NCBI GenBank assembly: GCA_029288615.1 | Contig: JARIGV010000025.1 | Location: 1-35,092, forward strand | From: Candidatus Tayloriibacteriota bacterium | Lineage (GTDB): Bacteria > Patescibacteriota > Minisyncoccia > Phycocordibacterales > CAIRYW01 | Reading direction: 5' to 3' | DNA: 35,092 bases | Shown: positions 12,287 to 22,523 of the stretch, piece after piece | How the letters are laid out: the number at the start of each line of letters is the position of its first letter | How positions within the stretch are numbered: position 1 is the first letter of the stretch | Notes under the pieces: generated by a model | The model's database searches: none | Told to the model about the DNA's origin: nothing | The model's input: the letters and a program-made list of their open reading frames with translations, nothing else | Made by a program: the position numbers and the translations under genes

Positions 12287-12694
12287 TTAGCTCTCTCTTA
12301 TTTTATCTATTCTCGGTTTTACAAAATAATAATATGCAAAGAATGCCCCAATGACATCGCAGACAAGATCAGAAAATGTGTCACGCCAATACCCCACAGC
12401 CAAAGGTGATGAAATATGAAAATGTGCTTCAAAAACTTCCCAGAGAAATCCTACAATAAGCGCCGCAGCTAAAGTGGTAAGTCTCTCCGCATAAAAAAAT
12501 GATTTCTTCCAGACATAAAATCCATACGCCCAGACAATAAGAGTCGTATCAGCACCACCCAAAAGATGGCTCGGAATATCGATCCAGTGATTCGTCCACT
12601 GAAGATGGAATTTGAGGACTGATATGTAAAAAACAGCCATAATAAAACTTATAGTGAGGATCTGACGGAGAAATTGTATTCTTTTTGCTGCCAT
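12287..12694 (-). CDS. small multi-TM membrane protein (VanZ-like?)
   Basis: Hydrophobic helices with conserved-looking GFLWEVFE and DTFSDLVCDVIGAFFA; ATG at 12694 or 12715. Upstream start at 12769 lies in a terminator. Confidence 0.7.
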   Translation of the reverse strand: MAAKRIQFLRQILTISFIMAVFYISVLKFHLQWTNHWIDIPSHLLGGADTTLIVWAYGFYVWKKSFFYAERLTTLAAALIVGFLWEVFEAHFHISSPLAVGYWRDTFSDLVCDVIGAFFAYYYFVKPRIDKIRES

Positions 12695-12721
12695 GTACGA
12701 ATAATTATACCCCATATATTT

Positions 12722-12765
12722 TAGAGAAAAAGAAAAAACCGCACCTGGCGAAAGTTGCGGTTCTT
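12722..12765 (-). terminator. Rho-independent terminator ending the structured RNA
   Basis: Minus strand AACCGCA...TGCGGTT stem (12737-12743/12756-12762) followed by TTTTTTCTTTTT. Confidence 0.75.
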
Positions 12766-12895
12766 TCAAGGGCTATCAACTACGTGTTACTCCTAAATCA
12801 AATTTAGGTGGGACACTCGACGGCCACCCGAGGATGTCCGAAAGATACAGTCCCTTAAAAACACGTAACTTAAGGTAACTTCGTTGATAACCACT
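12766..12895 (-). ncRNA. candidate structured RNA (stand-alone sRNA or riboswitch-like leader)
   Basis: Closing stem 12771-12780/12883-12892, 8-bp stem 12781-12788/12860-12867, hairpin 12792-12798/12802-12808, and internal stems around 12810-12854; promoter upstream, terminator downstream. Confidence 0.65.
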
Positions 12896-12898
12896 AAT

Positions 12899-12926
12899 GA
12901 TTTTACTCCTCTCCTCTTTTCAATCA
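12899..12926 (-). promoter_or_regulatory. sigma70-like promoter for the structured RNA
   Basis: Minus strand TTGATT-N16-TAAAAT, placing the start about at the base of the closing stem. Confidence 0.5.
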
Positions 12927-13034
12927 AGCACGACAGCAAAAAAGAAAACATTTCACAAATTTTTCAAGAAAAAAATTTAAAAACCGCTAAAAATCTCACT
13001 TTATTTTTCTATTGATTTTTATTAAATCTATTTC

Positions 13035-13098: not shown

Positions 13099-13605
13099 AT
13101 GGAAAAAACACTTGTAGTACTAAAGCCTGACGCAATCCAGCGAGGCATTGCAGGAGAAATCCTCACTCGTTTTGAGAAAGTTGGACTTAAGATTGTCGGT
13201 GCGAAAATGCTCGCCCCTTCATACGATCATCTTTATCACCACTATGAGAACATCGGAAAGATGGTCTCACGCCGAGGCCAGAAGGCTTTCGATGTCACGC
13301 TTGCTATGATGAACGCAGGTCCTGTTATTGCTCTCGTACTCGAAGGAGTTGAGGCAGTAGCCCTCGTTCGAAAGATGGTAGGAGCAACAGAGCCAAAGTC
13401 TGCTCTCCCAGGAACAATCCGCGGAGACTACTCTCACATGAGCTTCGGACATGCTGATGCAAACGATGTTGGTATTCCAAACCTCGTTCACGCTTCAGGC
13501 GATACAACAGAAGCAGCTCTCGAAATTGCACACTGGTTCTCTGAGTCTGAAATCTACACATACGAAACAGCTCACGAGAAATTCACACAGACGAAGAAAA
13601 AATAA
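13099..13605 (+). CDS. ndk: nucleoside diphosphate kinase
   Basis: MEKTLVVLKPDAIQRGIAGEILTRFEKVG... GTIRGDYS; His in NLVHASG. Confidence 0.95.
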   Translation: MEKTLVVLKPDAIQRGIAGEILTRFEKVGLKIVGAKMLAPSYDHLYHHYENIGKMVSRRGQKAFDVTLAMMNAGPVIALVLEGVEAVALVRKMVGATEPKSALPGTIRGDYSHMSFGHADANDVGIPNLVHASGDTTEAALEIAHWFSESEIYTYETAHEKFTQTKKK

Positions 13606-16493: not shown

Positions 16494-19400
16494 CTATTGT
16501 GCAGAGGTTGTGGATGCATCCGAAAAAGTTGTACTTGCATCTGAAGAAGTTACCGCAATGTCTGCGACGGTTGTGTCTGATGAAGTTGCTGTCGTATCAG
16601 ATATGGGAACAATAGTCGGAGTTGAAGTTGATGTTTCTTCTATTGTGGATGTTGCGTTCGTGCTTGAGACAGTTGAAGTTGATTCATCTGCTGGAGAAGA
16701 ATTTTCTGTTGATGATTGCTGTTTGTATGTTGTGACAGTCTGACCTGCATTTCGAAGGAGATTGTCGAGCTCAGTTTTTGTCACACATGTCTCCCCTGTT
16801 GAAGCACTACCAACACACAATGTTTCTTGATGTGAAGTACCGACAAACAAATCATGGATACCATTTGTCGCACTTCCAAACCACTCAACAAGCTTTTTCT
16901 TGAAGTCATCTGTGACGCTTGCGATTTCTTTTACAGCATTCACGAGTGCTGCGATGATTGGCCTATCTGAAAGTGTGAGGAAGCCATTTTTATCGACTCC
17001 AACTGCCTCAGGAATATTTTCTTTAACATTTTGCGCTGAGAATCCAGCATAGACTGTGCCTGTATCAAGACCTGTGTCTGCTTTCCATTTATAAAGAATT
17101 GGATTAATAGCAAGAATCTCCGACAAACTGTCAGTGAAATCTCCTTGGATATCCTTAAGCCTCTCGTCGGATGAAACAGTGAGGTTTCCATTTGCGTCAG
17201 TTGAAAGCGTACCTGCTCCGAAGTTTGCGAACTGCACTGTACCCGTAGTAGTAAGTTGTGCTGCGGGCGAAGACGTACCAATACCTACCTTTCCGAAGTT
17301 GTTGATTATAAAGTTTGTCGAAGTAGCAAGAGCTCCAGATGACGACGCTACAACAAAGAGCGACTGGTTGCCTCCGCCGTAGTTTGAGATTGCCAATTTT
17401 GCACCCGGGCTTGATGTACCAACACCAACAAGACCGCCAGTTGTAACATCAAAGCCTGGAGTATAGGAGTTTGCTTCAAACATCTGCAATTCTTCAAGAC
17501 CAAGATACGCTCCACCGTTGTTTGCTGTAACGTTTATTCTATACGCGCTGTAAAGTGTTGTGTTTGTGAAGGTGTACTGATTCCATCCAGACCAACTTGT
17601 TACGTTTGATCTCGTATCCAACACTACCCAACTTGTTCCGTTATAACCTTCAAAGGTCCAGTTTTTTGGTGCCCACGTTGGGTCGATCGCTCCATACATT
17701 TTATATGAAGTGATAGCTTTTGATGCTGCAAATTGATATGAGAGAAAACCAGAAGTTCCCTGCATGAACCATTTTGTCGTTATCGATCCATCGAATGCTT
17801 GCCATGTAGGCCATGAAGATGCGTTGTATTCTGCTGTTGAAGATGCAATACCACTAGGAGCGGTATAGCTCGTCATTGTAGGCACAGCATTTGTTGCAGC
17901 TATAGGAACGGCCACTTCAAACTGTGATGCAGACGATGTGTTGTTAAGTGACAAAGATCTGTTTGTCGAACTGTAATAGAGTGCACCATTGACGCTAAAG
18001 TTTCCACCACTACCCATGTTGATGCTGTAATTTGGAGATGTTCCAGTTGTCGCAATTGTTGTACCTCCTCCACTATCGACAGTGTATGTCGAATAGTTTG
18101 ATGTATCGTACCCAAGTGTTAATTGATTTGATGTTGTTCCTGTTACCTGAAGAAGAGCTGTTGGGGTTGTTGTACCGATACCAACATTTCCTGTTGTGTA
18201 ATAGATATTATTTCCCGATGTCGTCCATTGTGATGAAGCACCTCCACTTCCACCAATACATGAACCATTGATTGCAAAGCATCCCGCAACCAGATTGATA
18301 CCACCGGTTGTAGAAAATGTTGAAGTCGCCGTGCCGAAGTTAATTCCATTTGTATTACCAACAGAAAGAAGTGAGCCTGGAGTTGTTGTACCAATACCGA
18401 GTTTGCTTCCCGAGAGGACCATAGCAGATGCTCCGCCGACACCGTTGTTTGAGAAGAATAATTTTCCTCCTGTTGTTATGAGTCCAGAGTCGCCCGCTGC
18501 AGTACCAGTGACATAATCATTAGCATTAGCAGCTGAAAACCAATAACCCTCAACAGCAGTTCTTCCTATTGCATATGATGTATAGCTAGTGCTTCCGCCA
18601 GAAAGAAGTTTTATACCTGCATATGGTGTTGCTGGATTACCAGAAACTACGCTTAGCTTTGCGCCAGGACTTGTGTCTCCGATTCCTACATTACCACCCA
18701 CTTTCAAATGGAGTGCATCGGTAGCGTTAGGACCAAGAACAATATCGTACGCGCCGATTGTCGTGAGGTAACCTGAGCTTGGAGCATAAGCAGCACCCGA
18801 AGCAGCAGCACCGGCTTCAAGTACCGCACCTGAGGCAGGCGAAATAATTCCGGCTCGGAATTTTGCATAGGTACCCGTGATATTGTTTGTGATGTTTATT
18901 TGAGCTGTTCTGTCACCTCCCAAAGCAGATGCATATGGACCGAAAACAGAATACACACCATCGCCATTTGCTGATGATGCTGTATCGAAAGTAATTTGAT
19001 CTTTATTGTTTGCATTTGAACCGACAAATGTAAATTTTTGTATTGGTGTTGAAGTGCCCAATCCCACACTTCCATTCGACAAGAAGAGAGTTGATGTACC
19101 TGAAACTGCTGTGCCGCTCGCGCCATAAAATGCAATTTGTCCTAATGTTCCAGAGTTTACTGTTCCACTGCCGCTTCCACTTGAAAAACCAAGAGATGAA
19201 GTCGCTGTCCAGCTTGGCGCTGATCCAGATCCATTCGATACAAGAACGTATCCTGATGTGCCGGCGCTGAAATTTGCTTTAAGAGCGCCAGTAATATTTA
19301 AATCTCCCGCAACAGAAAGAAGACTACCTGGAGATGTCGTACCGATTCCAATATTGCCTCCAAGGAATGTCGCTGCGGCACCTGATCCTTTCTGTTCTAC

Positions 19401-22400
19401 AGCAAGCGTTGGATACGCTGATGTGCTTGAAGCAGAGAGCTGGCCCCAAGGAGTTGTTGAACCAACTCCCACATTTCCATTGAAATAAACACTTGATCCA
19501 CTACTTGTCCAAAGAGGTGAAAGGCCGAGAGAAGAGGTTGCAGTCAGTGTATATCCTCCTGAACTATTTCCTAAAAGAAGTTGTCCGTATGCAGGCGAAG
19601 ATGAAAGTCCTGTACCACCATACGCAATACTTAGTGTCGATGTCGATGAAACAACTCCACCCACAGCTTGAAGTGGACCAGTAAGTGATCCCACTGTAAG
19701 ACCATTTACCGCGGACACAGTAAGAGCCGTTGTTGATGCATAACGGAAGAATGAAGCAGTGCTACCGACTCCATTAAAGTTTGCTGCTGTTGTTGATGCA
19801 TATCCGGTATCATCACCAAGTCGCACATCAAGACCTGCTCCATCTCTCTTAAGAGAAACAAAAGTATTGCTTGCAGAACCTAGAATAATTCGTGGTGATC
19901 CACCACCAGTACTGTCACCAAATCGAAATACTCCATCTGATGCATTAGAAAGAAAACCAGTAATAGTTCCTGAAGTACTATTATCTCCCCACTGAAGTGA
20001 CTGCCCTCCTCCGATAAAGAGTGTACCCGCAACATGAGGCGATGAAGGAATTGAAAGTGTCACTGTATTTCCTGAAACCGATGTAGAAATTTGATTTGCT
20101 GTTCCAACAATTGATGTTGTTGCAGATGTTATACCAAGTGTTGAAGTTGAAATCGCGCCAGTCAAACCACCAATCGATGTAACACCACTGTTTGATAATG
20201 TATTGCCCGACCATGAAAGACCTGTGCCTGCACTAATTTGTGTAGATGGTGTATTGAAAAAAGTATTCCAATTTGAAGATGAGGCAGTGAGTGGAATTGA
20301 ATATCCAGAAGCAACGGAGAAAATTCCATTTGTACTGTCGTATGAAAGTGGTGATGTCGCAGAGAAAACTCCGCGTGATGTTGTTGTAGAAAATGACACA
20401 ATGCCAAGTGTCGATGTCGATACCCACTGTACACCAGATCCTGTTGTCTGAAGAATCTGTCCAGATGTTCCAGCATTGTAATTTGCTTTGAGCGCGCCTG
20501 TTATATTTATATTTCCAGCAACAGTAAGAAGGCTGTCCGGCGAAGTCGTACCGATTCCAAGATTTCCAGCATTTGTAAGACGTGCGAGCTCAACATTACC
20601 ACCGCTTCCACCTGTAAAAATTAAATCCCCTCCTGCAACGTTCTTCAAATAAGTATTTCCCGGAGCATCAGCATTGAAAAGTCCGACATATCGATTTCCT
20701 TGTATCAAACTTACACGCGGTGCACTTGCGTCAGTTGCTATTTCAACTCCATCATTGCTACCAGCAGCACCATCAGTATTGCGGACAAAAATTGCATCAC
20801 GAACATCAAGCTTTGCTTGAGGATCTGAAGTGCCGACGCCAACATTGCCACCACTATAATAAACACTCGATCCATTTGTACCCCACTGTGAAGATGTAAT
20901 TCCAAGAGACGAAGTCGCAACTGTACCGGTCAATCCACCAATTGATGTCACACCATTATTCGTAAGCATGTTACCACTCCATGAAAGACCAGTGCCAGCA
21001 GTGATAGCTGAAGATGGCGTCGTAAGAAAATTCTGCCACGCAGTTGTGGAAGCGGAGAGAGGAATGGAATATCCTGAAGCAACTCCAAAAGTTCCACTTG
21101 AGCTATCGTATGAAAGTGGTGATGTCGCAGAGAAGATTCCTCGTGTTGTTGTTGTAGAAAAAGATGAGATACCAAGTGTCGATGTCGAAATTGCACCCGT
21201 GAGACCGCCGATAGAAGTGACACCACTATTAGAAAGAGTATTCCCTGACCACGAAAGACCAGTACCTGCGGTAATTTGTGTCGACGGTGTATTGAAAAAA
21301 GTATTCCAACTAGAAGACGAGGCAGTAAGTGGGATTGAGTATCCGGAAGTGACACCGAATGTTCCTGTTGAACTATCGTATGAAAGAGATGAGGTAGCGC
21401 TCAAAACTCCTCGTGTTGTTGTCGTACTAAATGATGCACCACCTCCCCCTCCAGAAATTCCCGTAAGATGTGAGCCGTCTCCATAGAATGCATTTGCAGT
21501 GATATTTCCCGTCACAACAAGCGAATCTGCTGCCGCTGTTCCAAGTGTCGAACTTGCAGTTGTAATATTCGAAAGTCCTGTCGCGCTTCCTCCTGAAATA
21601 GTTGAATTAGAAATATTTTTTACATCGATGTTGTTTGTGATGTTTGTGATCGATGAACCAACAGAGCGAGCAAGAGAATCTGCTTGGGTTGAACGTGCGC
21701 CGACGAGAGCCTTATATGTCGCTGTGTTTACAGCAAGAAGTTCTTCGCGAAGATTATTGAGAGTGCTGTAGAAAAGAGATGGTGTAATGGTCGTTGCATT
21801 TGTTTGTGAGCTTAGAACAACAGGTGCTACATTTCCACCATACACCGAAGGCCGTGATGAAACTACTTGAATATTTGGAGATGATGAACTCGTAATACTT
21901 CCTGATGTATCTACAGTGATGTTGACATTGTTATCGTTACCTGTGTTTGGGGTATTGTTGCTTTGTACATACGACGCAACAGTTGGCTGTTCGAAAAGTG
22001 GGACAAGAGGATCAGAGAGTTTGTCGATGATGACATACCACACTTCCCCAACACTAGCGACCGACGCATCCGAAACAGAAACTTTAGGAAGAGAAATATG
22101 CGGAAGTGAAAGATGCGAAAAAGAAGCTGCAAGACTCTTTGTAGCAGAGAGCGGCATACCAATTGTTCCCAATGTGCCGTTACCGATATTTTTATAGAGA
22201 TCAAAAGTATGAGCAAAAAGCGGTATATAACTTTTTTCCACGCTCGCAAACGCAGTAGCAGTGTCTGAAAAGGCTCCAAATGTCGATGTAACGTAAAACT
22301 GACTGAGGAGATTGAGACTAATATTGAAAACAGCGTTTGTCTGAAAGCCAATATCAGTAATTGTAAGGAAATCGGAAACAGTTCCCTCATAAAGAGGTGC

Positions 22401-22523
22401 ATATATATCTTTAATTTTATTCAAAAAACTGTTTTCTTGAGCTTTCGGTGTTGCAGCGTAAGAGAAAAATGGGACAAAAACCAGTGATATGAAAAAGAAA
22501 ATGTATTTTCTTTTTTTATACAT
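16494..22523 (-). CDS. giant secreted fibre/adhesin-like protein with C-terminal Peptidase_S74 intramolecular chaperone domain
   Basis: N-terminal signal/TM segment; about ten [NK]xG[IV]GTxxPxxxL repeats; three ~90-aa tandem-type repeats; SDERLKDI...FSAQNVKENIPEAV S74 signature; Ser/Thr tail. Confidence 0.88.
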   Translation of the reverse strand: MYKKRKYIFFFISLVFVPFFSYAATPKAQENSFLNKIKDIYAPLYEGTVSDFLTITDIGFQTNAVFNISLNLLSQFYVTSTFGAFSDTATAFASVEKSYIPLFAHTFDLYKNIGNGTLGTIGMPLSATKSLAASFSHLSLPHISLPKVSVSDASVASVGEVWYVIIDKLSDPLVPLFEQPTVASYVQSNNTPNTGNDNNVNITVDTSGSITSSSSPNIQVVSSRPSVYGGNVAPVVLSSQTNATTITPSLFYSTLNNLREELLAVNTATYKALVGARSTQADSLARSVGSSITNITNNIDVKNISNSTISGGSATGLSNITTASSTLGTAAADSLVVTGNITANAFYGDGSHLTGISGGGGGASFSTTTTRGVLSATSSLSYDSSTGTFGVTSGYSIPLTASSSSWNTFFNTPSTQITAGTGLSWSGNTLSNSGVTSIGGLTGAISTSTLGISSFSTTTTRGIFSATSPLSYDSSSGTFGVASGYSIPLSASTTAWQNFLTTPSSAITAGTGLSWSGNMLTNNGVTSIGGLTGTVATSSLGITSSQWGTNGSSVYYSGGNVGVGTSDPQAKLDVRDAIFVRNTDGAAGSNDGVEIATDASAPRVSLIQGNRYVGLFNADAPGNTYLKNVAGGDLIFTGGSGGNVELARLTNAGNLGIGTTSPDSLLTVAGNINITGALKANYNAGTSGQILQTTGSGVQWVSTSTLGIVSFSTTTSRGVFSATSPLSYDSTNGIFSVASGYSIPLTASSSNWNTFFNTPSTQISAGTGLSWSGNTLSNSGVTSIGGLTGAISTSTLGITSATTSIVGTANQISTSVSGNTVTLSIPSSPHVAGTLFIGGGQSLQWGDNSTSGTITGFLSNASDGVFRFGDSTGGGSPRIILGSASNTFVSLKRDGAGLDVRLGDDTGYASTTAANFNGVGSTASFFRYASTTALTVSAVNGLTVGSLTGPLQAVGGVVSSTSTLSIAYGGTGLSSSPAYGQLLLGNSSGGYTLTATSSLGLSPLWTSSGSSVYFNGNVGVGSTTPWGQLSASSTSAYPTLAVEQKGSGAAATFLGGNIGIGTTSPGSLLSVAGDLNITGALKANFSAGTSGYVLVSNGSGSAPSWTATSSLGFSSGSGSGTVNSGTLGQIAFYGASGTAVSGTSTLFLSNGSVGLGTSTPIQKFTFVGSNANNKDQITFDTASSANGDGVYSVFGPYASALGGDRTAQINITNNITGTYAKFRAGIISPASGAVLEAGAAASGAAYAPSSGYLTTIGAYDIVLGPNATDALHLKVGGNVGIGDTSPGAKLSVVSGNPATPYAGIKLLSGGSTSYTSYAIGRTAVEGYWFSAANANDYVTGTAAGDSGLITTGGKLFFSNNGVGGASAMVLSGSKLGIGTTTPGSLLSVGNTNGINFGTATSTFSTTGGINLVAGCFAINGSCIGGSGGASSQWTTSGNNIYYTTGNVGIGTTTPTALLQVTGTTSNQLTLGYDTSNYSTYTVDSGGGTTIATTGTSPNYSINMGSGGNFSVNGALYYSSTNRSLSLNNTSSASQFEVAVPIAATNAVPTMTSYTAPSGIASSTAEYNASSWPTWQAFDGSITTKWFMQGTSGFLSYQFAASKAITSYKMYGAIDPTWAPKNWTFEGYNGTSWVVLDTRSNVTSWSGWNQYTFTNTTLYSAYRINVTANNGGAYLGLEELQMFEANSYTPGFDVTTGGLVGVGTSSPGAKLAISNYGGGNQSLFVVASSSGALATSTNFIINNFGKVGIGTSSPAAQLTTTGTVQFANFGAGTLSTDANGNLTVSSDERLKDIQGDFTDSLSEILAINPILYKWKADTGLDTGTVYAGFSAQNVKENIPEAVGVDKNGFLTLSDRPIIAALVNAVKEIASVTDDFKKKLVEWFGSATNGIHDLFVGTSHQETLCVGSASTGETCVTKTELDNLLRNAGQTVTTYKQQSSTENSSPADESTSTVSSTNATSTIEETSTSTPTIVPISDTTATSSDTTVADIAVTSSDASTTFSDASTTSAQ
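17154..17171 (-). other. predicted S74 autocleavage dyad SDERLK
   Basis: Ser and Lys five residues apart, as in endosialidase-type chaperone domains. Confidence 0.7.
17475..17890 (-). other. discoidin / F5-8 type C-like domain within the giant protein
   Basis: ASSTAEYNASSWPTWQAFDGSITTKWFMQ...YQFAASKAITSYKMYG...PKNWTFEGYNGTSWVVLDTR...YRINVTANNGGAYLGLEELQMFE. Confidence 0.7.
20140..21440 (-). repeat. three ~90-aa coding repeats (approx. 20140-20400, 20905-21165, 21175-21435)
   Basis: Near-identical SFSTTTxRGxxSATSxLSYDS...GYSIPL..TPS..I.AGTGLSWSGN.L.N.GVTSIGGLTG blocks. Confidence 0.85.

Follow-up and report, generated by a model that had tools for sequence, protein, structure and literature searches.

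6S RNA is a small RNA by which many bacteria switch off RNA polymerase, and B. subtilis has two 6S RNAs. In B. subtilis 6S-1, a central bubble collapse helix between the distal 5' bubble and the 3' strand of P2 forms once pRNA synthesis breaks P2 (PMC8876501), and a truncated, short-armed 6S-1 still completes the 6S cycle in vitro with ~10-fold lower affinity (PMC8876501). Core polymerase, too, can be bound by a 6S-like fold, as the actinobacterial Ms1 shows (PMC9130861). No study of 6S RNA in CPR bacteria, Parcubacteria, Saccharibacteria or Patescibacteria came up in a full-text literature search, an earlier mention, e.g. in Barrick 2005 or Wehner 2014, being possible; one paper mentions 6S RNA and Patescibacteria together, but its subject is the SRP in mitochondria. 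Here we describe an RNA from a 35,092-nt stretch of DNA of a Candidatus Tayloriibacteriota bacterium (the window), which is, with high confidence, a divergent, short-armed 6S (SsrS) RNA of the Paceibacteria (Parcubacteria).

Expression signals and predicted transcript borders

A preliminary description of the window had proposed a structured RNA with its own promoter and terminator, and all elements named in it were found on the minus strand. Covariance models R1–R3 (described below) delimit an RNA body of 127 nt (12768-12894, minus strand; fold z -5.7) with a predicted 5' end at ~12893-12895. The minus-strand fold energy amounted to -61.8 kcal/mol compared to -40.8 ± 3.7 kcal/mol for shuffles (z -5.68), and 0 of 200 shuffles were as low. 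The promoter, seen in the sequence and in a promoter scan, is TTGATT-N16-TAAAAT (12927-12900), comprising a -35-like TTGATT at 12922-12927 and a -10 box TAAAAT at 12900-12905, where homologues have TATAAT at the same position. A -10 box with at least five of six matches was found at the expected distance upstream in 25 of 29 homologues (2.4 in shuffles), and in 19 of the 29 it is a perfect TATAAT. Downstream of the RNA, the stem AACCGCA/TGCGGTT and a T tract form an intrinsic terminator (12727-12762, minus strand); a terminator is present in 26 of 29 homologues against an expectation of 1.4. The gene that follows on the minus strand has a TATAAT of its own at 12704-12709, 10 nt before the ATG, giving a near-leaderless mRNA, which makes a separate transcript the simplest reading of the window RNA. 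With its own promoter, its own terminator and about one copy per genome, the RNA behaves as a stand-alone gene, and the suggestion of a stand-alone sRNA is supported.

Homologue searches and covariation

A BLASTN search of the relatives with the RNA returned terminator-like noise and no homologues. Covariance model R1, made from the single window sequence in the three-way-junction fold of the preliminary description, recovered homologues over their full length, with a best E of 2e-8, from six further genomes of the order. R2 was built from six of these sequences, all from members of the order; among 297 genomes of the order, 145 contain a match to it, nearly always a single one. R3, built from 30 sequences, finds it in 34 of the 40 nearest relatives, with about one copy per genome, and in 106 of 288 genomes of a phylum sample. 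No copy was found by R3 in the near relatives G007, G008, G025, G026, G035 and G038, which may reflect true loss, incomplete assembly or further divergence.

The alignment of the R1 homologues revealed the core AAGGG-A-NNN-UAaCUUUCG-(variable hairpin)-CGUCGAG-NNN-A-CCCACCUA...UAGG, in which NNN/NNN covaries (GUC/GAC, GCA/UGC, GCU/AGC, UUC/GAA); the exact core is also present in named genomes including Candidatus Vogelbacteria and Taylorbacteria. A covariance model from homologues had been called for, and in the alignment of 30 homologues both partners change in 33 of the 39 base pairs, with 93% paired cells compared to 38-45% in slid controls; since this alignment had been made to fit the structure of R2, it is biased in favour of that structure. 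In a seven-sequence MAFFT alignment, which was unfitted, two-sided changes are already seen in 23 of 35 pairs. Comparative support thus extends to P1, the GGG/CCC arm, the apical stem and the CCTA..TAGG hairpin. The proposed pseudoknot GGTGG/CCACC is not conserved, and neither it nor the proposed pairing GGACA..CTCG/CGAG..TGTCC is supported: the homologues have these letters either within the covarying apical stem or within the invariant CCCACCU, which runs into the hairpin. A covarying 5-bp helix, GTTAC/GTAAC (P2), had been missed. The three-way-junction fold of the first model was rejected, since the homologues conserve GTTAC/GTAAC beside P1 and the pairing TACGTGTT/AACACGTA is an alternative to it.

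Relation to Rfam 6S RNA

A search of the window against Rfam 15 gave no match at gathering scores and none to RF00013 (6S) even at E 10; up to this E-value there were two matches only, both at chance level. ARAGORN found no tRNA or tmRNA. Of the earlier statement that no known class fits, the part on SRP RNA, RNase P and tmRNA holds, as none gave an Rfam or ARAGORN match, yet the RNA belongs with high confidence to a known class as a divergent 6S RNA below the Rfam threshold. The RF00013 gathering score was passed by none of the 41 relatives searched, and RF00013 as shipped finds nothing in the genome of the window. The homologues do reach RF00013 below the threshold: L026 matches model positions 18-170 of 187 with 23.9 bits (E 0.0035 over all Rfam families), and the alignment comprises the core GGGAGC...GCACCCACCUGG, the A.A mismatch, the central bubble and the following hairpin, with the 6S signature letters GGGagc...gcaCCCACCUgg aligned. 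L051, L054 and L064 also match RF00013 below the threshold, exactly at the position and strand of the RNA, and weak RF00013 matches in the relatives G021 and G039 coincide with matches of the covariance models. These two matches, G021:C3:20608-20737 and G039:C47:2412-2488, are far below the RF00013 cut-off and coincide with true family members.

In the opposite direction, RF00013 finds 6S RNA in 24 of the 288 Patescibacteria genomes, four times above the cut-off and in none of these four cases in the class of the window. Many of the loci that RF00013 finds in other classes are also matched, with coinciding coordinates, by R2, which contains no sequence from those genomes, and R3 matches 20 of 20 tested loci at their coordinates, with E 4e-8 to 2e-5 at the four above the cut-off. 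The GGG-A-NNN...NNN-A-CCCACCU motif at the border of bubble and arm is nearly invariant in the homologues and aligns to the RF00013 consensus; the A·A mismatch and the hairpin after CCCA are common to the homologues and both are features of the Rfam 6S model. At the level of sequence and covariation, these matches show that the window RNA is homologous to the recognised 6S RNAs of other Patescibacteria, and, being reciprocal, they lead us to assign it to 6S as a divergent member. Judged by the same searches, almost all members of the order fall short of the Rfam 6S threshold. R3 gave no match on E. coli 6S RNA (ssrS), a very distant comparison which is not a defining feature of 6S; the link runs via intermediate Patescibacteria sequences and the Rfam model.

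Anatomy of the RNA

The overall fold in 30 homologues is that expected of 6S RNA, a single hairpin-like structure with a closing stem, a large central bubble and a terminal arm. The closing stem consists of P1 and P2 (all features on the minus strand). In P1 the 5' strand GGTTATCAAC (12892-12883) pairs with the 3' strand GTTGATAGCC (12780-12771), as had been proposed, and both strands covary in the 30 homologues; the bubble-proximal P2, with the 5' strand GTTAC at 12875-12879 and the 3' strand GTAAC at 12786-12790, covaries as well. The central bubble is asymmetric. Its 5' strand, CTTAAGTTACGTGTTTTTAA (12855-12874), is unpaired in the consensus and would, by comparison with 6S, be the template side for pRNA, while its 3' strand carries the hairpin CCTAAAT-ttg-ATTTAGG (12808-12792), already named in the preliminary description, in which five of six pairs covary. 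The terminal arm on the "-35 side", GGG-A-C ... CTTTCG-hairpin-CGTCGAG ... G-T-CCC (12810-12854), includes the GGGAC/GTCCC pairing named earlier (12854-12850/12814-12810), and its core is a conserved one, shared by the homologues and the Rfam 6S consensus. At the site of the A·A mismatch of its relatives, the window RNA has an A-U pair. Folded alone, the window RNA partly closes the bubble in its minimum-energy fold (-43.8 kcal/mol compared to -37.4 kcal/mol for the open-bubble form), with a probability of 0.06 for the 3' bubble hairpin. Since the predicted free-state ensemble partly zips the bubble, its open form in the window is a comparative, not an energetic, conclusion.

Alternative fold and proposed polymerase cycle

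The sequence TACGTGTT in the distal 5' bubble (12867-12860) can pair with AACACGTA in the 3' strand of P2 (12788-12781), a pairing which had already been noticed and which corresponds to a central bubble collapse-type helix. This helix and P2 (GTTAC/GTAAC) are mutually exclusive. In the window the collapse pairing is stronger than in shuffles (z -2.7, P 0.02), and when nt 13-27 were barred from pairing, mimicking the pRNA, the TACGTGTT/AACACGTA helix was the best fold. Across 30 related homologues the mean z was -1.13 ± 0.30, the pairing being strong in roughly one third of them and lacking in some others; the collapse helix is suggestive, not established.

The structure, conservation, promoter and terminator, synteny and family membership of the RNA are results of the comparison; polymerase binding, promoter mimicry, pRNA synthesis and release we infer by analogy to the 6S family. 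As a 6S RNA it would mimic an open promoter and sit in the active site of the holoenzyme of RNA polymerase and the housekeeping sigma factor, down-regulating transcription under nutrient shortage. With rising NTP levels, the polymerase would transcribe the 5' bubble strand, together with the neighbouring 5' strand of P2, into a short pRNA. P2 would break as a result, leaving its 3' strand GTAACACGTA available for pairing with TACGTGTT of the distal bubble. The collapsed RNA and its pRNA would then leave the enzyme, a step that follows the release model of B. subtilis 6S-1 (PMC8876501). Since the truncated 6S-1 works in vitro, the short arm of the window RNA should be no obstacle to this cycle.

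The short arm and its lineage-specific motif CTTTCG/CGTCGAG could also be taken to indicate a 6S-derived RNA that, like Ms1, binds the polymerase core or another form of the enzyme and not the housekeeping holoenzyme, for which Ms1 is the precedent. We consider this very unlikely, because the RNA retains the core sequence of 6S as well as the bubble and the hairpin in its 3' strand, and an arm shortened by truncation still allows the cycle in 6S-1 (PMC8876501).

Genomic neighbourhood and second copies

The RNA lies between the gene for a nucleoside diphosphate kinase (ndk, 13099-13605, plus strand) and, downstream and outside the RNA, that for a small membrane protein of 135 aa (12287-12694, minus strand), for which no Pfam or NCBIfam family was found; the membrane protein has the shared motifs D..H..GG, WE..E and D...D..GG. 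The order ndk - 6S - small membrane protein or β-CASP nuclease is conserved: ndk was found on one side in 20 of 29 loci and, on the other side, the membrane protein in 19 and the β-CASP nuclease in 6, together 25 of 28 loci. In the window the β-CASP nuclease gene is the next after the membrane-protein gene. In other classes neither ndk nor the membrane protein nor β-CASP was detected beside the RNA within ~1.5 kb on each side. The synteny, together with an RNA that occurs elsewhere without these neighbours, speaks for orthology and for action in trans, and against a leader that acts in cis.

The preliminary description had offered, as a second possibility, a terminator-type riboswitch, i.e. 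a cis-regulatory leader of the membrane-protein gene in which a ligand toggles the folds and the terminator. The terminator directly upstream of the gene, the mutually exclusive helices and the same membrane-protein family after the RNA in 19 of 28 loci fit such a leader, but the gene has its own TATAAT, the RNA persists where the gene is replaced by the β-CASP nuclease (6 loci) or absent, as in other classes, it is about single-copy and nearly universal among relatives, unlike a regulon, and its core matches 6S. A riboswitch is, therefore, very improbable. Even less credible is a convergent origin of the 6S likeness in a novel RNA class, as the missing Rfam match of the window and the missing R3 match on E. 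coli 6S might suggest, since the reciprocal matches between these models and RF00013 at identical coordinates, including loci above the Rfam cut-off, and the identical invariant letters GGGA...ACCCACCU already largely refute it. The window RNA is neither a riboswitch nor a new RNA class.

A second, weaker match was found in the genome of the window at G000:C16:50463-50577(+) (locus L083:964-1078, 32.6 bits). It contains AAGGGAGCA...UGCACCCAC and has a closing stem, and a terminator follows at once; its fold alone is unremarkable (z -1.2) and a clear 3' bubble hairpin was not seen. It is probably a second 6S-like RNA, and the two may form a pair of 6S RNAs as in B. subtilis. Rfam matches on this copy were discarded as terminator noise. 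Two 6S-like copies close together, the second of them diverged, were also observed in L070 (G039:C47; 1501-1626 and 1956-2080) and in G062:C10 (6913-7041 and 7114-7241). Elsewhere in the window, 16494-22523 (minus strand) encodes a repetitive surface-type protein of 2009 aa with a C-terminal Peptidase_S74 (chaperone of endosialidase) domain, an end also known from phage tail fibres.

Discussion

The window RNA is a known kind of RNA and represents an overlooked, widespread subfamily: the RF00013 cut-off is passed in 4 of 288 genomes of the phylum; searched with the new models, most of the relatives sampled and more than one third of the phylum sample have the RNA. From this distribution it follows that even genomes of ~0.8 Mb, probably host-dependent, still keep an RNA brake on RNA polymerase, the brake role being that expected from the 6S family. 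More speculative, and in our view rather doubtful, is the idea that a short-armed 6S subfamily is general across the Patescibacteria, having lost the long -35 side and gained the conserved internal loop CTTTCG/CGTCGAG, with a polymerase recognition that would differ from that of model 6S RNAs (e.g. less dependence on sigma region 4), in ultra-small, probably host-dependent bacteria. For annotation, the alignment yields a model that can replace the current one at once, and the RNA offers a minimal 6S for structural studies that ask which portions of the arm are required.

Among the known systems, the actinobacterial Ms1 shares with the window RNA a 6S-like hairpin with a bubble, is likewise hard to find by sequence and is associated with RNA polymerase, as would be expected of the window RNA from its family, but it binds the core enzyme without the primary sigma factor. 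B. subtilis 6S-1 has in common with it the 3' bubble-strand hairpin that is possible in the free RNA and the ability of the 3' strand of P2 to pair with the distal 5' bubble (PMC8876501), but the arms of the window RNA are much shorter. The RF00013 6S RNAs of other Patescibacteria classes (e.g. L031-L046) share the closing stem, the large central bubble, the GGG-A-NNN/NNN-A-CCCACCU core, the 3' bubble-strand hairpin, the stand-alone gene and reciprocal covariance-model matches at the same coordinates. Compared to these, the window RNA lies below the Rfam cut-off, has 127 nt instead of about 185, replaces the A.A mismatch by an A-U pair and carries a shorter terminal arm with its own internal loop CTTTCG...CGTCGAG.
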